DNA from: Candidatus Altimarinota bacterium
Lineage (GTDB): Bacteria > Patescibacteriota > Minisyncoccia > Phycocordibacterales > UBA5272
Reading direction: 5' to 3'
Assembly: GCA_021734745.1 (NCBI GenBank)
Contig: JAIPIK010000001.1
Location: 1 to 64,000, forward strand
DNA: 64,000 bases
Shown here: piece after piece, positions 33,169-44,100 of the stretch
Layout of the letters: each line of letters opens with the position of its first letter
Position numbering within the stretch: the first letter of the stretch is position 1
Made by a program: the position numbers and the translations under genes
The notes under the pieces: model-generated
Seen by the model: only the letters and a program-made list of their open reading frames with translations
Database searches by the model: none
What the model was told of the DNA's origin: nothing

Positions 33169-33242
33169 GGGCCTATAGTTTAGTGGCAGAACAACGGCCT
33201 CCAAATCCGTTGGTCGAGGTTCGATTCCTCGTGGGCCCGCCA
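33169..33242 (+). tRNA. tRNA-Trp(CCA), CCA end encoded
   Basis: Acceptor GGGCCTA (33169-33175) pairs with TGGGCCC (33232-33238, one G-T pair); discriminator G, then encoded CCA at 33240-33242. Anticodon loop CTCCAAA gives CCA (reads UGG). T arm CGAGGTTCGATTCCTCG is perfect. The last anticodon-stem pair is C-T, a mismatch. Confidence 0.95.
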
Positions 33243-33245
33243 AGT

Positions 33246-33286
33246 CGTTTAGGTTCTGGTGCTCGATGAGCTTAGAAAACTAAACG
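33246..33286 (+). ncRNA. 3' hairpin of the stalk/tRNA-Trp transcript
   Basis: CGTTTAG (33246-33252) with CTAAACG (33280-33286), enclosing GCTC-GAT-GAGC (33261-33271). It lies between tRNA-Trp and the terminator and may protect or guide processing of the 3' side. Confidence 0.45.
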
Positions 33287-33295
33287 AAGAAAGAA

Positions 33296-33332
33296 AACAT
33301 AAAAACTACTCGGACGGAGTAGTTTTTATGTT
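33296..33332 (+). terminator. intrinsic terminator of the RNA operon
   Basis: 16-bp arms 33296-33311 and 33317-33332, loop GGACG, T-rich end. Confidence 0.9.
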
Positions 33333-33379
33333 TTACTTATCTTCAAAAAAACTCCTAAAAATGGTATTATATTAAAATA

Positions 33380-35947
33380 ATGAAAAAAGAAGCTTCAGCT
33401 AGAATAAAGATAAATAAACTCTTAGAAGAATCTGGCTGGAGATTTGAGAGTGATAGTAACGGCCTTTTAAATATAGAACTAGAGCCTGGTGTAATTCTTT
33501 CTGAAATGGGAGATGACTTCGAGAATGTTTCCAAAGGATATATTGATTTTCTACTTCTAGATGTAGATGGAAGACCTCTTGTTGTTGTGGAGGCAAAAAA
33601 AGAGTCAATTGATCCACTTTCAGCAAAAGAACAAGCACGAAATTATGCTCGTAATGTAAATGCTCGTTTCGTAATTCTTTCTAATGGTAATCTTCATTAT
33701 TTCTGGGACACCAAGCATGGTAATCCTGATACTATCTCTCGTTTTCCAACGCAAGATTCTATAACACAATACGAAAAGTACACTCCAAATCCTCAAGAAT
33801 TAGGTAATACAAATGTAGATGAAAACTACATTGTAGAATCACAAATGCCATCATATGCAAATGATCCTGATTTTCAAGACGAATCAAAACGTCAAGATTT
33901 TTTGCGTAACAATAATCTTAAACAGATGCGACCGTATCAAATAGCGTCAATAAAAGCATTGCAGTCAGCCGCTCTTGAGAATAAGAATAGATTTCTTTTT
34001 GAAATGGCAACAGGAACTGGGAAGACTCTTACATCTTCTGCTGTAATAAAGCTATTTCTAAAGTCAGGTAATGCACGACGTGTGTTATTCCTCGTTGATC
34101 GACTTGAACTTGAAGATCAGGCTCATAAAGCCTTCAAGCAATATCTAGGAAAAGATTATACAACTGTTATTTATAAAGACAGTCCTGATTCATGGAGAAA
34201 TGCACAGATTGTTGTTTCCACTATTCAAACATTCATGTCTGGAGATAGATATAAGAAAGAATTTTCACCAACTGATTTCGAGCTTGTTATTTCAGATGAA
34301 GCACATCGCTCTATTGGTGGTAATAGTCGTGCAGTGTTTGAGTATTTTGTTGGTTATAAGTTAGGGCTAACAGCAACACCAAAAGATTATTTGAGAGGGT
34401 TCGACGGAGAGGGTGCAGATACACAACGAGAATTTGAGCGTAGACAATTGCTTGATACATACAAAACATTTGGATGTGAACCAAGCAAACCAACATTTAG
34501 TTATGACTTACTTTCAGGGGTGAAAGATGGTTTCCTTATTAATCCTGTTGTAGTAGATGCTCGTACAGAGATTACCACTGGATTACTTTCAACAGATGGT
34601 TACGCAGTCCATTCTACGACAGTAGAAGGAGAAACAATTAACGAAGTATTTAATGAACGTCACTATGAGAAGAAATTCTTTAATGAAGAAACAAATATTG
34701 CTATGTGTAAGGCTTTTTTGGATAACGGATTCTATGATCCTATTGCCAAGAAATATGGTGTAGATCTTTTTGGTAAATCTATTATTTTCTGTGTATCACA
34801 AAAGCATGCATCTCGTGTTACAAACATCTTAAACAAGTTAGCTTTTGAAAAATGGCCACAGCAATATAATGAGTCAGATTTTGCAGTCCAAGTCACATCA
34901 CTTGTTGCAAGTGCTCAACAAATGACCATCAACTTTTCTAATAATATGCTTAATGGAAAAGTAAAAAGACCTCAAGGATATGATTCTAGTAAAACTCGTG
35001 TAGCAGTTACTGTTGGAATGATGACAACCGGATATGACTGTCAGGATATTCTTAACCTCGCTCTCATGCGACCAGTATTTAGTCCTTCAGAATTCGTGCA
35101 GATGAAAGGAAGAGGAACACGAAAGTATCGATTTGAATATACAGATTACAATAATCAAGAAACAGTAGTAGAGCTAAAAGAACATTTTAAATTCTTTGAT
35201 TTCTTTGCTACGTGTGAATATTTTGAAAATGAGTTCAAATATGACGAAAAAATAAAGTTACCAAAAATACAGAAGATAACAGAAGTAGACGCTACAACAG
35301 GACAACCTACTACAGATAGTTCACAAGGTGAATTCGTAGATGAGAATGGTGTGAAGATTTTCAAGGGTCCTATAGACTTAGCAACACAAGATGATATTAC
35401 ATCTGTGAAAGAATCACATGTTGGACAAGAAGGAATGCGTATAGATCGTGAAGGGTTTAGGCGTGCTGTAGAAGAGGATATTTTGACCAACGAAACATTG
35501 AAGAGTATGTGGAATAATGGAGATGTTGCAGGAGCAGAAGATTATACTAAGACAAATATTTTCGATAAGCCGAATCACTTCCTTAATCTGCAAGGAATAC
35601 GAAAAGCATTTAATGTTGATCGTCGTATAACTGTTCGTGAATTTTTACAGGTAGCTTTCGGACAAAAGGATGGGTTTGAATCTAAGGATGAATTACTTGA
35701 ATCAGAATGGAACAAGTTCACAGAAATAAATCCTGTAGATCAAGAACATTATGCACCAGTAAAGAGTTTCTTCAAGGCATATATTGTTGATCCTCAAGTA
35801 CGTGAGATTATAGATACCAAACAACTTGCACAACTCCACTTTTGTCCATCATTTGATTTCGAGGAGTACGAGCAATTAAATGGTTTCAAGGCAATGGTTC
35901 CCACATATATCAAGGACTACGTATCGCTTAATACTTTTATGAATTAA
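33380..35947 (+). CDS. hsdR: type I restriction enzyme, HsdR subunit
   Basis: 855 residues. The N-terminal PD-(D/E)xK nuclease has YIDFLLLDVDGRPLVVVEAKK; the SF2 translocase has Walker A MATGTGKTLTSS (~212), SDEAHRS (~310) and GRGTRKYR (~575); the C-terminal ~200 residues are the helical complex-binding part. It cuts unmodified DNA after translocation. TATTAT ends 9 bases before the ATG. The fused HsdM-HsdS gene follows by 4 bases. It begins just after the tRNA-Trp operon. Confidence 0.95.
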   Translation: MKKEASARIKINKLLEESGWRFESDSNGLLNIELEPGVILSEMGDDFENVSKGYIDFLLLDVDGRPLVVVEAKKESIDPLSAKEQARNYARNVNARFVILSNGNLHYFWDTKHGNPDTISRFPTQDSITQYEKYTPNPQELGNTNVDENYIVESQMPSYANDPDFQDESKRQDFLRNNNLKQMRPYQIASIKALQSAALENKNRFLFEMATGTGKTLTSSAVIKLFLKSGNARRVLFLVDRLELEDQAHKAFKQYLGKDYTTVIYKDSPDSWRNAQIVVSTIQTFMSGDRYKKEFSPTDFELVISDEAHRSIGGNSRAVFEYFVGYKLGLTATPKDYLRGFDGEGADTQREFERRQLLDTYKTFGCEPSKPTFSYDLLSGVKDGFLINPVVVDARTEITTGLLSTDGYAVHSTTVEGETINEVFNERHYEKKFFNEETNIAMCKAFLDNGFYDPIAKKYGVDLFGKSIIFCVSQKHASRVTNILNKLAFEKWPQQYNESDFAVQVTSLVASAQQMTINFSNNMLNGKVKRPQGYDSSKTRVAVTVGMMTTGYDCQDILNLALMRPVFSPSEFVQMKGRGTRKYRFEYTDYNNQETVVELKEHFKFFDFFATCEYFENEFKYDEKIKLPKIQKITEVDATTGQPTTDSSQGEFVDENGVKIFKGPIDLATQDDITSVKESHVGQEGMRIDREGFRRAVEEDILTNETLKSMWNNGDVAGAEDYTKTNIFDKPNHFLNLQGIRKAFNVDRRITVREFLQVAFGQKDGFESKDELLESEWNKFTEINPVDQEHYAPVKSFFKAYIVDPQVREIIDTKQLAQLHFCPSFDFEEYEQLNGFKAMVPTYIKDYVSLNTFMN

Positions 35948-35951
35948 CATT

Positions 35952-38432
35952 ATGAATGCAGAAACAAAACGCCACATAGATGCAGCTCGCCAAGTGCTTG
36001 TAGGGGTAGTGCCGAATCCAGCATCACAAATAGACCAAATCACTAATGCTCTTATTTATAAGTTCATGGATGATATGGATCAATCAGCTATCAAGCAAGG
36101 TGGTGAGCCATCGTTCTTTACTGGTGACCTCAAGGACTATGCGTGGACTCGTCTTATGGATACTCGTATAGGGAATCAAGAGCGAATGAATATATATAGT
36201 GAAGCCCTTGTGAAGTTCTCTGAGTCCAAGCAATTGCCACAGCTATTTCGTGAGATTTTTAAATCTGCATTCTTGCCATATCGTAGCCCTGAAGTATTAG
36301 GGTTATTCTTAAAAGAAATAGACTACTTCGACTACTCTCATCCTGAAGAGCTTGGGAATGCTTACGAATACCTTTTGTCTATTATGTCCTCACAAGGAGA
36401 TGCGGGTCAGTTCCGTACACCACGACATATTATTGACTTCATTGTTAATATTATTAACCCTACAGCTGAAGATAAAGTGTTAGACCCTGCATGTGGCACT
36501 GGAGGTTTCTTAGTAAGTGCTTATAAACATATTGCGGAACAACACGATGGAAAGAATTCTGATGGATCAAAAAATAAAGAGAAACCACTAACGCCTGACC
36601 AGCGTAAGAATCTAATGAGTAACTTTGAAGGATATGATATAGACCCTGGAATGGTACGTATAGCACAAGTGAATATGTATCTGCATCAGTTCAAGAACCC
36701 AAAGATTTATAACTATGATTCTCTTTCTATGGATGAAAGGTGGAATGATAAGTTTGATGTAATACTGGCTAATCCTCCTTTTATGTCACCAAAAGGCGGA
36801 GTGAGTACTCATAATAAGTTCAGTATTAACGCTACTCGGTCCGAAGTATTGTTCGTGGACTACATCATGAACCATCTTAAACCAAAAGGTAAAGCAGGTA
36901 TTATCGTACCTGAAGGAATTATTTTCCAGTCTGGTACATCACACAAGCAATTACGAAAGAATCTTGTTAATGATGGGTTGTATGCTGTTGTTAGTTTACC
37001 AGCAGGAGTGTTTCAGCCATACAGTGGAGTAAAAACTAGTATCTTGCTTTTTAATAACGAGCTTGCAAAACAGAGTAAAGAAATTTTGTTTGTAAAAGTA
37101 GAGAATGATGGTTTTGGTCTTGGTGCTCAAAGAAGAACATCTACTAAGAATGACCTACCAGAAGTATTAGAGATTTTGAATAAGTGGAATAGTAACAAAA
37201 AGGTAGAAAATGTAAATGTTCTATATGTAGAAAAGACAAAAATTGCAGAAACAGATGACTATAACCTTTCTGGTGACCGATATCGTACAGCGATTGATTA
37301 CTCTAATGTCAAATGGTCAATGGTTTCATTGGGTGATGTTTGTGACTTACATAGGGGTGTTGTTTATTCAAAATCAGACGAAGTACTCAGTGATGGTTAT
37401 GGAATACTGCGCGCAAACAATATTTCATTAGATAGTGGTTTAATTTTGGATGATGTTAAATTAATTTCAAAAAATCTTAAACTGAAAGAGGTCCAAAAAT
37501 TTAAGGCAGGCGATATTTTCATTTGTCTTGCCAGTGGCAGCAAAGATCATATAGGGAAAGTAGCATATATCAAAGAAGATACTGATTTTTATTTTGGGGG
37601 CTTTATGGGAGCAGTAAGAATTAAAAATGGGACAATCGATTCCCGGTTCCTTTTTTCTTTGCTTAAAGATCAAAAATTCAATGATTTTTTGCGTCAAGAA
37701 ATTAGTGGTGCAAACATAAATAATCTTAATTCTGGCATTCTTTCTAGATACAAAATCCCTCTTCCTCCTCTTGATGTCCAAGAGAAAATTGTTGCTGAAA
37801 TAGATAGTTACCAAAATATCATCACTGGTGCCAAGCAAATCACCAACAACTGGAAGCCTTTAATTGATATTGACCCAACATGGGAAAAAGTAAAATTGGG
37901 TACTGTGTGTGGATATGCTGGAGGGACTCAACCACCAAAATCAACATTTGTAGATAATCCCAAAGAGGGTTATGTTAGATTGCTCCAGATTAGAGATTAT
38001 AAGTCAGACAAAAATGCTACATATATTTCTACTTCTGTGCGTCATAAAACCTGTAATGAAAACGATATAATGATTGGTAGATATGGTCCACCAGTTTTTC
38101 AAATTTTGCGTGGTAAAGCCGGGGCCTATAATGTAGCACTAATGAAGTGTCTACCTGATAACAGTAAAATTACTAATGACTGGTTATATTATTTCCTAGT
38201 ATCTGACTCCGTTCAGGAGAAAATAATTTCCTTATCAGGTAGGGTCAGACAGTCAGGTGTAAATCCTGCGGATTTAGATGAGTTAGTAATTCCTCTTCCT
38301 GTTCTTGAAATTCAAAAACAAATAGTAGAACGTGTAAAAGTTGAGCATTCTCTTGTAGAAGGTAATAATAAATTAGTCGAAATCTACGAACAAAAAATAA
38401 GAGAAACCTTAGCAAAACTTTGGGAACAATAA
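35952..38432 (+). CDS. hsdM: fused HsdM-HsdS type I modification/specificity protein
   Basis: 826 residues joining two normally separate subunits. Residues ~1-440 are the N6-adenine methylase: a helical HsdM N-domain, SAM motif DPACGTGGFLVSAY (~178) and catalytic NPPF (~273). From ~452 come two target-recognition domains, each opening in S-subunit style (KWSMVSLGDVCDLHRG and TWEKVKLGTVCGYAGG at ~642) and ending in a coiled coil (PPLDVQEKIVAEID, PVLEIQKQIVERV). With HsdR at 33380 it forms a complete type I system in two genes. The recognition sequence cannot be read from the TRDs. Confidence 0.93.
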   Translation: MNAETKRHIDAARQVLVGVVPNPASQIDQITNALIYKFMDDMDQSAIKQGGEPSFFTGDLKDYAWTRLMDTRIGNQERMNIYSEALVKFSESKQLPQLFREIFKSAFLPYRSPEVLGLFLKEIDYFDYSHPEELGNAYEYLLSIMSSQGDAGQFRTPRHIIDFIVNIINPTAEDKVLDPACGTGGFLVSAYKHIAEQHDGKNSDGSKNKEKPLTPDQRKNLMSNFEGYDIDPGMVRIAQVNMYLHQFKNPKIYNYDSLSMDERWNDKFDVILANPPFMSPKGGVSTHNKFSINATRSEVLFVDYIMNHLKPKGKAGIIVPEGIIFQSGTSHKQLRKNLVNDGLYAVVSLPAGVFQPYSGVKTSILLFNNELAKQSKEILFVKVENDGFGLGAQRRTSTKNDLPEVLEILNKWNSNKKVENVNVLYVEKTKIAETDDYNLSGDRYRTAIDYSNVKWSMVSLGDVCDLHRGVVYSKSDEVLSDGYGILRANNISLDSGLILDDVKLISKNLKLKEVQKFKAGDIFICLASGSKDHIGKVAYIKEDTDFYFGGFMGAVRIKNGTIDSRFLFSLLKDQKFNDFLRQEISGANINNLNSGILSRYKIPLPPLDVQEKIVAEIDSYQNIITGAKQITNNWKPLIDIDPTWEKVKLGTVCGYAGGTQPPKSTFVDNPKEGYVRLLQIRDYKSDKNATYISTSVRHKTCNENDIMIGRYGPPVFQILRGKAGAYNVALMKCLPDNSKITNDWLYYFLVSDSVQEKIISLSGRVRQSGVNPADLDELVIPLPVLEIQKQIVERVKVEHSLVEGNNKLVEIYEQKIRETLAKLWEQ

Positions 38433-38435
38433 AAT

Positions 38436-38639
38436 ATGAAATCAGAAGAAAAAATATTTTTAGTTTTAGAAAGAATTAAAAGCAAGGTCGACATTGCTCC
38501 TTCTGGTTCTGCGATTAACTATCGTGCAGGTGAAGAAGTCAAAGAGCTTGGTGCAGAAGATGAGATTCTTATATTGAATAAATTAGCTGAAGAAGGTGTT
38601 ATTAATGTCGTGAGTAATTATGCTTCTGATTATATATAA
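38436..38639 (+). CDS. small winged-helix-like protein upstream of a HEPN gene
   Basis: 67 residues, helical with a short beta end (EEGVINVVSN), resembling half of a winged helix; not firmly recognised. It starts 3 bases after hsdM-S and ends 3 bases before the Ymh/HEPN gene, in the same reading frame, with a single TAA between them. It could be the N-terminal domain of that protein split by a stop, or a small partner of it. Confidence 0.6.
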   Translation: MKSEEKIFLVLERIKSKVDIAPSGSAINYRAGEEVKELGAEDEILILNKLAEEGVINVVSNYASDYI

Positions 38640-38642
38640 AAT

Positions 38643-39128
38643 ATGAAATACAAAGGATTTATATTTAATATCAAACCGAACAAAGTCGCTTTTGAAGAAG
38701 CTTTCTTAAAGTATTCGACTTCAGTATCACTAAATGAAAATGTTGTTATAGAAGTAGATAAACTTTTTGGAATTCATTCCGAAATACAAACTAAATGTTT
38801 ATCATTATATCAATCAGGTGCTCACGCAGAAGCTGTAGAAAAAAGTTTTAAAGTAGTAAAAGATAAATTGCGAGCTTTAACTGGGCATGAATCTGGTTCT
38901 GATGCTTTTGGTAAAGGTAAGTTGCATATAAAAGGTGCTGCCGCATTAAATGTTGACGATGATTTCAATAAGGCAGTTCAGTTTTTAACTATGGCAATTG
39001 ATATGTTTAGAAATGAAAAAAGCCACACATCAGACGCAAAGATTGAAGACCCTGTAAGATCTTACCAGTACTTAGCCATGAGTAGTTTGGCTCTGTCTCT
39101 GTTAGAAAATTCAGAAATAATTAAGTAA
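38643..39128 (+). CDS. HEPN-type Ymh-family protein (TIGR02391)
   Basis: 161 residues resembling the Ymh family: HSEIQTKCLSLYQSGAHAEAVEKSF, a middle block ending KGAAALNVDD, and RNEKSHTSDAKIEDPVRSYQYLAMSSLAL. The RNEKSH segment fits the R-x4-H motif of HEPN ribonucleases, several of which are toxins or abortive-infection effectors. It sits directly downstream of the type I system, a common place for such effectors. Ribonuclease activity is inferred, not shown. Confidence 0.75.
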   Translation: MKYKGFIFNIKPNKVAFEEAFLKYSTSVSLNENVVIEVDKLFGIHSEIQTKCLSLYQSGAHAEAVEKSFKVVKDKLRALTGHESGSDAFGKGKLHIKGAAALNVDDDFNKAVQFLTMAIDMFRNEKSHTSDAKIEDPVRSYQYLAMSSLALSLLENSEIIK

Positions 39129-39132
39129 AATC

Positions 39133-39834
39133 ATGTTCCTTTCTATTTTTTCATATCTTTCACTTCGGTATGAAAATGAAGAAGATCAAAAATATATTGA
39201 GGGTCTTATTGAGCAGTTTCGTAAAGCCCAGGAAAATGGTTCGTTCCATTTAGCCCTCTTTGCTTACCATTTGCTCTTTATGATTTTTATATATCAAACA
39301 ATATATAAAGCAAAATTATGGAAACTGGAACAGTTTTCTCTCGCTTTCACAATTTCTCCGGCAGATAAAAAAAAGCAATACACAGAAACATCTACTGTTT
39401 ATGCTTTTGTAGAAATACCAGAAAGGACTATTTTTACCCTACTTTCTTTATTCCAAGAGTGTGAAAATACCATTTCAAAATGTAAGAAAATTATTGATTA
39501 TCGTAACAATAATCTTGGCCATGCTACTCCTTATATCGTTTCTGAAGGTGAATTTGAAAATAAGATAGAAGAGTATGACCAAGTAGCTTTTGAAATTCAC
39601 AAGCTAACTCATACTGAGTTAGCAAATATATTCGATAAATATTTCGCTTCCATTGATTCAGAAGTCGATCAAACAAAAGACGACATAGAACTTAATTTGA
39701 TTGTTCCAAATAGACTAAGTGATAAAGATCTCGAATCGTTTGCTTCTGAATGTTTAATAGTTCCAGATTTCAAAAAGAAACAAGCTTCAAAAATACTTAA
39801 AGATTATTTTGGTGTATCTGTTGAACTAGCTTAA
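39133..39834 (+). CDS. second HEPN-like protein
   Basis: 233 residues, helical, with a hydrophobic segment near 40-57 (LALFAYHLLFMIFIYQTIY). RNNNLGHATPY (~130) fits the HEPN R-x(4-6)-H pattern. I do not recognise the family otherwise. It starts 4 bases after the Ymh-type gene and overlaps the convergent serine recombinase by 9 bases. With the upstream gene it may form a two-component HEPN module guarding the restriction system. Confidence 0.6.
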   Translation: MFLSIFSYLSLRYENEEDQKYIEGLIEQFRKAQENGSFHLALFAYHLLFMIFIYQTIYKAKLWKLEQFSLAFTISPADKKKQYTETSTVYAFVEIPERTIFTLLSLFQECENTISKCKKIIDYRNNNLGHATPYIVSEGEFENKIEEYDQVAFEIHKLTHTELANIFDKYFASIDSEVDQTKDDIELNLIVPNRLSDKDLESFASECLIVPDFKKKQASKILKDYFGVSVELA

Positions 39835-41148
39835 GCTGATTACTTTATTCTTAAGTAGTATCTTACTCTTAAAACATCCTAACAGTTCTCTTTTTTCTAA
39901 GTCACTTCCTTCTTTGAGGATATACTTAGCATAGTTACGAATATCTACGTCTTTAATCTTGATTTGCTTCGTATCTCCTAAAACGCTTCTCTGGAAGCTC
40001 TTAATCCTTTCAACTTCAGTTCGTATCTTTTCTTTCATTCCTATCTCATCTAGGTCAATTTTATCGAGTAGTTCTTGAAATTGTTTTATAAGTTCATCTT
40101 CATTGGTATAACCACACTTACAGTTCTTATCTTTAGACTTTGTGCATGCATAATAGACATAACGATGAACATTACCGTTCATCTGTTTCTTTATCTTTTC
40201 ATCGGCTGTAATACCAGAACCACATAGTCCACAAGTCATTAGTTTAGTGAAAGCAAATTCTCTGTTATTAAATTCAGTTCTTGTGACCTGTCTAGTTAAT
40301 TGAGCCTGTACCTGATCATAAAGTTCTTTAGTAATGAGTGGTTTATGACTACCTTTGTACCAGTTACCACTTTTCCTCGGATACTCAAATTCTCCATAGT
40401 AAAAAGTATTCTTTAAAAGTAAATTAATGTTTCCTAAACTAAGATGTTTCTTTCCATATGAAGTTCTAAAATTAAGATCAAATTTAAGCCAATGATACAC
40501 CTTTAAACAACTCACTTTATCATAAGCAATTTTCTCAAACATTTCTTTAATGATATGACCTCTATCTGGATCAATATACGTTTGGCACTTTCTATCCATT
40601 CTATTTTCTTTTAAATATCCAGTAGGGGCAGGACATGGCCATAAACCCATTTCAACTCTAGTTCTTAGTCCTCGTTTTACGTTTACACTTTTGTTATCAT
40701 TCTCTAGTTTTGCTTGAGAACATAAAATCATGAGTAAAAACTTTTCGTTAGGTGAATTACTAAATGTTTGTCCATATGTTCGTATTTGAAAAAGTAACTG
40801 TTGATCCATAAGATCTACTATTGAACCTAAGTCACCTGCATTTCTACTAATTCTTGAAGCGTCCCATGCTAAGATTCCATTAAACCTTCCTCTTTTAATA
40901 TCTTCTAGTATTTCTTTAAAAACTGGTCGTTGTCCTGAATCTTTAGCAGAATGAGATTCTCGTCTGATGTCTACAATTTCTAAACCTTCTCTTTCTGCTA
41001 ATCTAAGCATTTCTTTAATTTGAGAATCAATAGAAAGAATTTGTCTTTCTTCTGATTCGGTACTTTTTCTACTATACAAAACATATTTCATTTTTTGAAT
41101 AGGTAAAGCTACCATATTGCCCATAAGTCCAAATGTTTGTTGTTCCAT
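39826..41148 (-). CDS. large serine recombinase / integrase
   Basis: Up to 440 residues. The resolvase domain starts YVLYSRKSTESEERQ (catalytic Ser26), with LAWDASRISRNAGDLG; then a recombinase domain with GTRPAP-like PAPTGYLKE, and a zinc ribbon (CGLCGSG and later CTKSKDKNCKCG). It moves DNA by site-specific recombination and is probably the integrase of the island. A minus-strand TATAAT abuts the first ATG, so translation may begin at one of the internal ATGs at 41124, 41115 or 41091. Confidence 0.92.
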   Translation of the reverse strand: MEQQTFGLMGNMVALPIQKMKYVLYSRKSTESEERQILSIDSQIKEMLRLAEREGLEIVDIRRESHSAKDSGQRPVFKEILEDIKRGRFNGILAWDASRISRNAGDLGSIVDLMDQQLLFQIRTYGQTFSNSPNEKFLLMILCSQAKLENDNKSVNVKRGLRTRVEMGLWPCPAPTGYLKENRMDRKCQTYIDPDRGHIIKEMFEKIAYDKVSCLKVYHWLKFDLNFRTSYGKKHLSLGNINLLLKNTFYYGEFEYPRKSGNWYKGSHKPLITKELYDQVQAQLTRQVTRTEFNNREFAFTKLMTCGLCGSGITADEKIKKQMNGNVHRYVYYACTKSKDKNCKCGYTNEDELIKQFQELLDKIDLDEIGMKEKIRTEVERIKSFQRSVLGDTKQIKIKDVDIRNYAKYILKEGSDLEKRELLGCFKSKILLKNKVISLS

Positions 41149-41175
41149 ATTATATTAATGACAGAACCATAATCC

Positions 41176-41192
41176 CTGCATAGTCTATGCAG
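41176..41192. repeat. 17-bp near-perfect palindrome beside the recombinase gene
   Basis: CTGCATAG-T-CTATGCAG, 28 bases upstream of the recombinase start. Could be a recombinase binding half-site pair, an operator or a small hairpin. Confidence 0.5.
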
Positions 41193-41231
41193 AACTAAAA
41201 AAGGCGACATTGTGAGAGTAAATAAAAAGCC

Positions 41232-41260
41232 TTAGCAAAAGACCTTTTATGCGATATAAT
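41232..41260 (+). promoter_or_regulatory. promoter of the structured leader
   Basis: TTAGCA (41232-41237), exactly 17 bp, TATAAT (41255-41260); predicted RNA start at ~41267. Confidence 0.7.
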
Positions 41261-41266
41261 CAATAG

Positions 41267-41493
41267 ATTAATACAACTTGTATTAAGAAGAACAATTCAA
41301 TAGTAACCTAACCCTTTAGCTCCTAGAACTAAAGATATGGTGAAGAAAGTCCTATCAGAGTAAAAACCCCATCATGTGGGCTTTGCTCTGATAGGCCATA
41401 TCTGGAAACGGATATGAAGGTCGCAAGACCTTACTCACGTGGTGGGATTTTTGCTACCCAACGAGAGATTACTAAGTCCTATCAGACAATTTT
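41267..41493 (+). ncRNA. structured leader RNA with mutually exclusive stems
   Basis: A 227-base leader without a gene. It folds into several hairpins: GATATGG (41334-41340)/CCATATC (41396-41402), then CCTATCAGAG (41351-41360)/CTCTGATAGG (41386-41395) capped by CCCA/TGGG, a perfect AAGGTC-GCAA-GACCTT tetraloop hairpin (41417-41432) and GGTGG/CTACC (41441-41458). The 13-mer AAGTCCTATCAGA occurs at 41347 and again at 41474, 7 bases before the ATG, so the 41386-41395 strand can pair with either copy. CATATC/GATATG (41397-41416) is a further alternative. This is the layout of a switch controlling the downstream gene. No Rfam class recognised. Confidence 0.65.
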
Positions 41494-42246
41494 ATGAAGC
41501 AAAACAAATCTCCTTTCGGAGATAATTTTAGATATTTAGTAGAGGAACGAATCAAAAACTTTTGGGGATACGGTAACTTTAAAAGTGATGTATGGTTTAT
41601 CGGAATGGAAGAAGGTCATAGTGGAGATATTGAAAGCTTAGTCAAAAGATTAGAAGCAACAAAAGATAAAGAAACTTTGGATATCTATGATGACATGAAA
41701 CATGACGTCGCTCATATGAAATGGTTTGAGGAAGGAGCAAAAACTCAAGCAACCTATCGTCGATTAATTTACATACTACTCTATCTTAAAAATAAGGTAG
41801 AGCCAACGATTGAAGAAATACGGCAATTTCAAATAAAAGAGTTCGGTAGAAAAACATCTAATCATACAGTATTGGAATTAATGCCTCTTCCTGCAAAATC
41901 TATTAGTGCTAAGGACTGGGTATATAAGGAAGCAAATGTTGAAGGGCTACATACTCGAAAAGAATATTTAGCAACATACAGACCAAAAAGAATAGCACGA
42001 CTTCGTGAATTAATTTCTATACATAAACCAAAAATGGTTATATTTTACTCTCGAGTGTATTTACGAGAATGGAGAGAAACCGTACCTGTACCTTTAGAAG
42101 AAATCAAGGATACTAAACTTCATATAGCAAAAGACCACAACACATTATATGTTGTGGTCCCTCACTCAACTTCTTTCGGAATATCGACAAGCGATTGGAA
42201 GAAGATTGCAGAAGTATTACTTAGTCACCATAGTCATCATCATTAA
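41494..42246 (+). CDS. uracil-DNA-glycosylase-superfamily-like protein
   Basis: 250 residues. The order of motifs resembles the UDG superfamily: SDVWFIGMEEG (motif A position), LELMPLPAKSI, KPKMVIFYSRVYLREW, and VVVPHSTSFGIS (motif B HPS/HSxSxG position). The catalytic Asp/Asn of motif A is replaced by Glu, so either the chemistry is altered or the assignment is a distant fold match. It ends in LLSHHSHHH. It has a long structured leader, unusual for this genome. Overlaps the end of the convergent gene at 42221. Confidence 0.5.
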   Translation: MKQNKSPFGDNFRYLVEERIKNFWGYGNFKSDVWFIGMEEGHSGDIESLVKRLEATKDKETLDIYDDMKHDVAHMKWFEEGAKTQATYRRLIYILLYLKNKVEPTIEEIRQFQIKEFGRKTSNHTVLELMPLPAKSISAKDWVYKEANVEGLHTRKEYLATYRPKRIARLRELISIHKPKMVIFYSRVYLREWRETVPVPLEEIKDTKLHIAKDHNTLYVVVPHSTSFGISTSDWKKIAEVLLSHHSHHH

Positions 42247-42625
42247 CATCACCAACTACATTTGACGGCATGTTTAATGGATCAACAGTATTGATAGTGA
42301 TTGAGCTAATAGGGACAAATGGTTTCTTCCACATGTCTTTAGATCGTGGCTTAATATAGTCCTTCTTTTTGTTATCAAGCCAATACGCAATTGCTCGAAA
42401 GTCAGAACCATTAATTAGACCTATCAACTTACTTTCTGCAAGATCACTAACGGAATCATTTCCAATAGCCATAGCTTGATCAAGACGATGCTTGAATTCA
42501 GGATCTTCATTGCACCAACGATAGATAGTGTTTCTTGATAAACCAATTTTTTGACATGCTGACGATATATTAGGTACATGTTGAATTTCTTCAAGAAAAG
42601 CAACTTCCTTTTTATATCGTTTCAT
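42221..42625 (-). CDS. terminase small subunit-like HTH protein
   Basis: 134 residues. FLEEIQHVPNISSACQKIGL followed by SRNTIYRWCNEDPEF is the DNA-binding helix-turn-helix of phage terminase small subunits (phBC6A51 group), followed by a helical oligomerisation part. Its start overlaps the ParB-methylase gene by 14 bases, a tight phage-style arrangement. No large terminase follows: the next sequence is the convergent UDG-like gene. It is best read as part of a phage remnant. Confidence 0.75.
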   Translation of the reverse strand: MKRYKKEVAFLEEIQHVPNISSACQKIGLSRNTIYRWCNEDPEFKHRLDQAMAIGNDSVSDLAESKLIGLINGSDFRAIAYWLDNKKKDYIKPRSKDMWKKPFVPISSITINTVDPLNMPSNVVGDVNDDDYGD

Positions 42626-43907
42626 TTCCTCGCACTATTTTCGCCTTGTCGTTAGTCATCAGTTCATATCGTCGTATGATGAGATCGCAAAAAGCTGGCT
42701 CGAGTTCACATCCATATACTCTGCGACCAAGCTGTTCCGCAGCCAAGAGGGTGCTTCCTGATCCAAGGAAACTATCAAGAATAATGTCGTCTGGTTGTGT
42801 ACAACGTTTGATTGCCTTTTCATGGAGATCTAAAGGCTTACTCGTTGCATGCATATAATCTTTAGAAGCAAGACGTTTTGCTGTCCAAATTTCCAAGAAG
42901 TCATCGACCTGTGAAAGAAGTTCATTGCCTGTGGTAAATTCCTTGTTAAGAACTTCATTAAGGTTAGTCATCTGTTCTGCAAGATATGGTCGTCCTCGTA
43001 TTGCATATACAGCAGGTTCGTAAGCCTTGTTACAGAAGACCTTACTTACAGGGTTCTGGGAATTTTTCAACCAAATACATACTCGCTTGTTGGTTAAGCC
43101 AAGTAATCGGAACACTTCCTGAATTAGACCTATATAGATCTGATCGCAGTAATAAAAACAATGAACATCATACTTTGATACAGATGAGGCGGCTTCCAAG
43201 CTGTCACTGATGAAACCTTTGTACTCTGCGAAAGTTCGAGAATCGTTAACATGACCCCCGTAATCCTGAGAACCACCTATGCCACCATTATAATTAATGT
43301 TGATGTTGTAGACTGGGTCCGAGTAGATCATTGAAGCTCTTTCGTCACCAAATAGCTTCATAAGATTTTCTGGTAAGGTGGAATCACCACAGAAAATCTT
43401 GTGTTTGCCGAGCAAGATTATATCACCAAGCTTTGTCTTTGGCTTGGTAATCTTTTTGATTTCCTTGTCGACATCAAAATTATCATCGACTACGCCATTG
43501 TCTGTATCCCAGAACTTAGCGATTTCTATCTTATCTAGTCCTGCTTCCACAAGCAGGTCTACTTCAAAGGATTTCAGTGCTTCGTAATCCCATTCGCCAC
43601 TTATGGCGTTCGATGCTATGAGGTACTGCTTTTCCTCATCGTCTGTTAGTGGGCGGTTTGGAATTCTAACATCAATCATGTCATCTCCTCGACCAAGGAG
43701 TTGTAATGCTTTGATACGCTGGTGTCCTGCAAGAATTTTTGAATTATTGCCGATTGCAGGAATCTCCACCAAGTTGTACTTCTCAAGACTTTTCTTAAGA
43801 GATGACATCTGGGAGTCATTGATCTTTCTGGGATTAACGTCTTGAGGAATAAGGTCGTTAACTTTTCTGCTTACCGTTAACCATTCTAACTTTATTGTCT
43901 TTGTCAT
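42612..43907 (-). CDS. ParB-like domain fused to DNA methyltransferase
   Basis: 431 residues. The N-terminal ~110 are a ParB/Srx-type domain (DVNPRKINDSQM, ILAGHQRIKALQLLG). The C-terminal ~270 are an N4/N6 amino-methyltransferase of the beta class: catalytic YSDPVYNI (DPPY variant, Pro to Val), then FLGSGSTLLAAEQLGRRVYG as the SAM motif. This pair is typical of phage and integrative-element genomes next to terminase genes. The frame opens to 43934, but ATG 43907 avoids overlap with the next gene. Confidence 0.9.
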   Translation of the reverse strand: MTKTIKLEWLTVSRKVNDLIPQDVNPRKINDSQMSSLKKSLEKYNLVEIPAIGNNSKILAGHQRIKALQLLGRGDDMIDVRIPNRPLTDDEEKQYLIASNAISGEWDYEALKSFEVDLLVEAGLDKIEIAKFWDTDNGVVDDNFDVDKEIKKITKPKTKLGDIILLGKHKIFCGDSTLPENLMKLFGDERASMIYSDPVYNININYNGGIGGSQDYGGHVNDSRTFAEYKGFISDSLEAASSVSKYDVHCFYYCDQIYIGLIQEVFRLLGLTNKRVCIWLKNSQNPVSKVFCNKAYEPAVYAIRGRPYLAEQMTNLNEVLNKEFTTGNELLSQVDDFLEIWTAKRLASKDYMHATSKPLDLHEKAIKRCTQPDDIILDSFLGSGSTLLAAEQLGRRVYGCELEPAFCDLIIRRYELMTNDKAKIVRGNETI

Positions 43908-43911
43908 AAAA

Positions 43912-44100
43912 TTATTTGTTATGGTTGGTAACATCTGAAAGAAGAATCGACTTAATTTCTTCTAGATCGTCTCCGTCGATATCTTCACCACACCATGGAC
44001 ATGAGACATGTGCTTCTTTCTCATCACTACCAGACCAAGTGATAATTATTTCTGGGAACTCTGGTGCAACCACTGCACCCTTTGTATGAATGTATTTCAT
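43912..44100 (-). CDS. small protein with one CxxC pair
   Basis: 62 residues from MKYIHTKGAVVAPEF. A single SCPWCGED motif could form half of a zinc site or a redox pair; the rest is acidic. It is 4 bases upstream of the ParB-methylase gene and probably cotranscribed. The frame extends to 44145 but the shorter start is better placed. Not recognised. Confidence 0.6.
   Translation of the reverse strand: MKYIHTKGAVVAPEFPEIIITWSGSDEKEAHVSCPWCGEDIDGDDLEEIKSILLSDVTNHNK

Follow-up and report, generated by a model that had tools for sequence, protein, structure and literature searches.

Comparative analysis indicates that LOOT RNA is a folded leader able to swap pairing partners, often beside the start codon of a mobile-element gene

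The leader of a gene resembling uracil-DNA glycosylase (UDG) genes in the 64,000-nt stretch of Candidatus Altimarinota DNA analysed here (the window) contains an RNA of the LOOT family, and comparison with its homologues indicates that LOOT is a folded leader able to swap pairing partners, often beside the start codon of a cargo gene in a prophage or similar mobile element. An earlier note on the window had proposed a cis-regulatory leader at this place, with two alternative pairings that would mark a two-state switch. The observation is upheld, and homologous sequences support the two-state idea: the two competing partners of 41386–41395 recur, whereas the other proposed alternative, CATATC with GATATG, is unsupported. 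That note had missed the LOOT identity, a second conserved helix (b–b′) and the mobile-element setting. The features discussed below are as follows.

39826..41148, − strand: divergent large serine recombinase/phage-type integrase (Pfam PF00239, PF07508 and PF13408; phrog_95, E 3e-58)
41232..41260, + strand: promoter-like hexamers TTAGCA-17-TATAAT (scan; not above chance alone; −10-like boxes cluster in other LOOT loci)
41305..41432, + strand: LOOT RNA RF03000, full model 1–121 (score 86.5 bits, threshold 46.4)
41306..41341, + strand: stem P1 with conserved CCUAA/AUGG internal loop (cmscan alignment; z 19, 130 loci)
41351..41360, + strand: a, 5′ strand of the lower part of the long stem P2, in which pairing extends to 41364 (a–a′ z 65, 130 loci)
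41362..41380, + strand: b, upper 5′ part and tip of P2 (b–b′ z 30; local tip hairpin z 15)
41386..41395, + strand: a′, 3′ strand of P2, partner of a or a2 (swap tests)
41397..41416, + strand: hairpin P3 with GAAA loop (cmscan alignment; z 29.5)
41417..41432, + strand: hairpin P4 with GCAA loop (cmscan alignment)
41434..41452, + strand: b′, 3′ partner of b, with a U run at its end, outside the Rfam model (swap tests)
41474..41486, + strand: a2, second copy of the 13-mer, alternative partner of a′, 7 nt before the start codon
41494..42246, + strand: UDG-superfamily-like cargo gene, 250 aa (AlphaFold2 model and PDB structure matches)
42221..42625, − strand: terminase small subunit-like gene (phrog_4044, E 6.5e-8)
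42612..43934, − strand: ParB/N6-N4 DNA methyltransferase of phage type (Pfam search; phrog_498, E 5e-79)

The cmscan match covers the RF03000 model over its full length, and its whole-model score lies above the gathering cut-off, which places the element in the family. Two further copies are found in the same genome (960 kb in 30 contigs), at C21:4960-5077 and C28:303-429, and LOOT was present in 20 of 60 relatives. In a sample of 379 genomes of the phylum, presumably Patescibacteria (CPR), 83 had it (81 of them above the cut-off); most of the genomes are small (0.5–1.5 Mb). The discovery paper of the family is reportedly from 2017. In the passages that mention it, LOOT is cited for an extreme number of cross-covariations (PMC7657543), serves as an example figure (PMC7779021) or gains two base pairs with R-scape (PMC11701678); no function was given for it in the text returned by a literature search on LOOT and RF03000. 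Riboswitches in the host group are treated only as tools in the relevant part of PMC11665869, and a search for structured RNA together with the candidate phyla radiation found no paper.

For the comparison, 158 LOOT places with their flanks were collected within the phylum from the 60 relatives and 379 sampled genomes, leaving out G155:C88. At least 60 nt of downstream sequence was available for 154 loci, 138 passed the segment parse, and 130 non-redundant loci remained after near-copies had been removed (8 dropped, including the window copy, L004, and L015). Covariation support was measured by scoring each strand against its own partner and against swapped partners from other loci. Loci with the a2 repeat are referred to as class A (42 loci) and those without it as class B (96 loci).

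The position of LOOT relative to genes is nearly constant. For 150 places the downstream sequence reached 600 nt or more; in 124 of them the first same-strand ATG frame of 60 codons or longer begins 30–100 nt after LOOT, compared with 511 of 3,765 random positions (13.6%). On this positional evidence LOOT acts as a 5′ leader, and it lies where a riboswitch would, in the leader of a putatively regulated gene behind a putative promoter. The Rfam type 'Gene; sRNA', a label rather than a structural criterion, implies independence from the downstream gene and does not agree with this placement. The promoter named in the earlier note is present as hexamers in the window; however, the match by itself is not above chance, since the region 41140–42300 contains one site of this type against 4.4 ± 2.4 in shuffled sequence. 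In a set of 120 loci, boxes resembling TATAAT are concentrated about 15–35 nt upstream of LOOT. Transcription would start near 41267, from which, with the ATG at 41494, the previously stated leader of 227 nt follows. A palindrome, TTAATACAA-C-TTGTATTAA, lies at 41268–41286, right at this putative start; it is kept in slightly altered form in L028 and L174 and is a possible operator. A separate hairpin, TGCATAGTCTATGCA, is found at 41174–41194, upstream of the promoter and between LOOT and the divergent integrase, and the sequence around it is partly kept in L173 and L174.

The 13-mer AAGTCCTATCAGA has two exact copies, at 41347–41359, where a overlaps it, and at 41474–41486, just before the ATG; the repeat scan listed no other direct repeat in this region. 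By inspection of the letters, 41386–41395 (CTCTGATAGG) can pair either with 41351–41360 (10 bp) or with 41478–41486 (9 bp). In other loci the repeat recurs with other sequences. Within 260 nt downstream, a match to the locus's own stem strand a (score ≥9) was found in 44 of 154 loci, compared with 25 of 1,848 comparisons using stems from other genomes; its end lies −3 to +5 nt from an ATG in 38 of these 44, and within 12 nt in 41. When the search was confined to the start region (−22 to +4, score ≥8), 36 of 130 loci had the repeat, as against 78 of 16,770 swapped pairs (0.5%), and the same search gave 0 of 130 inside the gene, 1 of 130 upstream and 0 of 130 on the opposite strand. The sequence of a2 differs from locus to locus. 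Leaders of homologous cargo genes illustrate how it changes: the window gene has AGTCCTATCAGA twice and L015, whose cargo is 63% identical, has AATCCGTCCAAA twice, and the same joint change is seen for L073/L108 (67% identical cargo), L069/L120 (63%) and L058/L075 (43%). By this comparison, a, a′ and a2 have changed jointly, as three strands. The closer relatives L173 and L174 retain the window's a/a2 sequence; L087, which is the last of the LOOT-bearing UDG-like relatives, has no a2.

These results bear on both ways in which the proposal could have failed. The stems in homologous leaders do covary, and mere duplication of a site does not explain the 13-mer, because dozens of loci have a different sequence repeated at the corresponding position; the swap test rejects site duplication, and to chance or duplication as an origin of the repeat we give almost no credence. 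On the other hand, a2 is absent from about 70% of loci, so the core function of LOOT is something other than the pairing of a′ with a2. The test of a′ against the tail gave z 27 in class A, a value that is circular because the class was chosen on the repeat, z 0.1 in class B and z 19.7 overall. A Shine–Dalgarno 4-mer is present in the start region of 2 of 42 class A loci versus 20 of 96 class B loci, a scarcity in class A that counts in favour of the switch described below.

The second helix, which joins b to a strand in the roughly 20 nt that follow the end of the Rfam model, is near-universal among the loci. Its own pairing score is 32.4 against 18.8 for swapped strands, and none of 2,000 permutations reached the former (130 loci). 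In the 118 of 130 loci with a score of at least 25, several columns exchange among G–C, C–G, A–U and U–A, while two columns are mostly G–U and an A–C mismatch is frequent. Since the local hairpin at the P2 tip is supported besides b–b′, as is pairing between b′ and the tail that precedes the gene (z 9), each of three strands has two supported partners in the swap tests: a′ pairs with a or a2, b with its own tip or b′, and b′ with b or the tail. Taken together, the comparison supports a–a′, b–b′, the tip hairpin and b′–tail generally, and a′–a2 in about 30% of loci. Judged by covariation, b–b′ competes with the P2 tip. The strands shared between partners give LOOT the mutually exclusive conserved helices expected of a riboswitch. 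With a median of 23 nt, the interval between a and a′ seems unable to bridge the 18-bp b–b′ helix while a–a′ stays paired; on this geometry a–a′ and b–b′ would exclude each other.

The GCAA-tetraloop hairpin pointed out earlier is P4. In the P1 internal loop (41307–41340 in the window) a non-Watson–Crick covariation was seen among 120 loci: in 76 of them an A follows CCUAA and a C precedes AUGG, and in 33 these two bases are C and U, respectively. As for CATATC/GATATG, the complementarity exists, but 72 of 2,000 permutations reach its own score (z 1.8, 130 loci), and this second alternative was rejected.

We consider it reasonably probable that the LOOT leader acts in cis and switches translation of a mobile-element cargo gene between two stable states. 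In state I, a–a′ would be paired and b folded on itself, leaving open the 3′ tail, which carries a2 and the start codon. In state II, b′ would invade the loop at the P2 tip to form the long b–b′ helix, which is probably incompatible with an intact P2 stem; the freed a′ would be captured by a2, and this pairing would probably cover the ribosome landing site. State II would then be the OFF state, the two states would be mutually exclusive in vivo, and a ligand, a protein or a process would pick between them. Energies of explicit structures (mean of 38 class A loci) are −66.2 for state I and −47.9 for state II plus −17.0 for a′–a2, so that the states are nearly equal before any pseudoknot penalty. 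In class B the corresponding values are −61.4, −44.1 and −4.9, with no compensating −17, and in the window they are −58.2, −40.6 and −14.9. If a pseudoknot is assumed to cost 8 kcal/mol, state II is the more stable in only 1 of 38 class A loci; the RNA alone should therefore rest in state I, and something must favour state II.

A U run of at least five in b′, present at 68 of 130 loci, counts against a translation switch in that it fits a transcriptional mechanism too. LOOT might be an attenuator: b–b′, with its A run, GC core and U run, would be a terminator interrupted by a large insert, P2 would serve as antiterminator, and a2 would be a secondary feature. The near-universality of b–b′ agrees with this, as does a CTCAC/GTGGG hairpin with ATTTTTG flagged in the window. 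Yet the run is three or shorter in 29 of 130 loci, it pairs with the A run of b and takes part in exchanges such as A–U to C–G, the local hairpin before it is unsupported (z 1.8) and was rejected as a terminator, and a2 beside the ATG is left unexplained; we therefore regard attenuation as unlikely. That LOOT is a stand-alone trans-acting sRNA, with the adjoining gene a mere neighbour or one target among others, appears quite improbable: the Rfam type speaks for it, as does the fact that many copies finish in a U run, but the distance and strand relative to the next gene are fixed, and the exact stem-a 10-mers of the three copies in the window's own genome have no further start-site target there. 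The window 10-mer has one extra match, at C9:24708 inside a long frame, and those of C21 and C28 have no extra exact match in that genome.

It is less probable again that the repeat and stems act as DNA, as an operator or recombination site of a serine integrase element. A divergent serine recombinase is indeed often near, but its distance varies from 0.8 to more than 10 kb while that to the start codon is nearly fixed, and a2 still matches the stem at loci where both have acquired another sequence, a pattern more in keeping with RNA pairing than with a single DNA-binding protein.

The bistable leader that we favour would act within mobile elements. The order of genes in the window is integrase, LOOT with the UDG-like gene, small terminase and ParB-methyltransferase, and G414 has the same order together with a large terminase. 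In 64 genomes hand-picked for having LOOT, a PF07508 recombinase lies within 5 kb of at least 49 of 116 copies, a lower bound to be set against about 3.4 expected for 900-kb genomes and uniform placement; it is on the 5′ side and divergent in 43 of the 49, and 40 of the 116 copies have no recombinase on their own contig among the matches listed. In the same LOOT-selected genomes, 14 of 22 phage large-terminase matches are within 3 kb of a LOOT, and 48 of the 64 have no such match. A scan of viral_contigs with two patterns gave one match, which is not LOOT by cmscan, and blastn against phages and plasmids found nothing; both kinds of search miss most divergent LOOTs. The LOOT genes are read here as accessory cargo, for which the term 'morons' is in use, of prophages and integrase elements. 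Several integrase-plus-LOOT units stand in tandem on one contig of G414 (L179–L181, C6:156001-214358), a row that suggests stacked integrative elements or prophages. Contigs C25, C40 and C88 of G155 end or start exactly at LOOT copies, as expected because assemblies break at repeated sequence. In the window, a tRNA gene and then type I restriction-modification genes (33169–39834) precede the integrase, and the protein directly before it (39133–39834) has a weak PADLOC match to a reverse-transcriptase-associated family (E 0.0013).

Support for the UDG-like label, already used in the earlier note, comes entirely from the fold. The AlphaFold2 model (pLDDT 71, 6 sequences) has thymine- and uracil-DNA glycosylases as its top PDB matches (best E 7.5e-5, TM ~0.4–0.5), which supports membership of the UDG superfamily with a predicted glycosylase-like fold; no Pfam family scored above cut-off, and PADLOC and PHROGs gave no match at E 0.1. 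The genes downstream of LOOT are diverse, comprising, as named from their translations (family searches covered the window genes), DNA methyltransferases, nuclease-like, UDG-like, zinc-ribbon and other membrane or secreted proteins.

Little is known so far about gene regulation in this large, mostly uncultured group of bacteria with tiny genomes. The leader role, the helix outside the model and the three-strand covariation at the start codon make LOOT, a family given no function in the passages cited above, a testable regulatory RNA, and point to control of prophage cargo genes in this group. More tentatively, and with rather more doubt than belief, LOOTs could be widespread natural strand-exchange leaders of this phylum, borne by prophages and serine-integrase elements, each with a private a/a′/a2 address that avoids cross-talk and all receiving a common signal via the P1 loop. 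If so, the several copies in one small genome could each switch their own cargo gene.

The element in the window shares with the catalogued family a full-length covariance match, stems P1 to P4, the invariant CCUAA and the tetraloop hairpins. It differs in running beyond P4, where the Rfam model ends, to include b′, and in being a 5′ leader, often with a2 at the start codon, rather than the sRNA of its type label; the leader role, the b–b′ helix and the start-codon repeat are thus the additions that this comparison would make to the family. Like ligand-binding translational riboswitches, LOOT has helices that compete with each other, and one of them would mask the start region; unlike them, its switching strands are locus-specific in sequence and its cargo genes are diverse. 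LOOT also resembles synthetic toehold switches in that a loop, the one at the P2 tip, could be the toehold for strand invasion by b′, except that in LOOT the invading strand is part of the same RNA and the design is a natural one.
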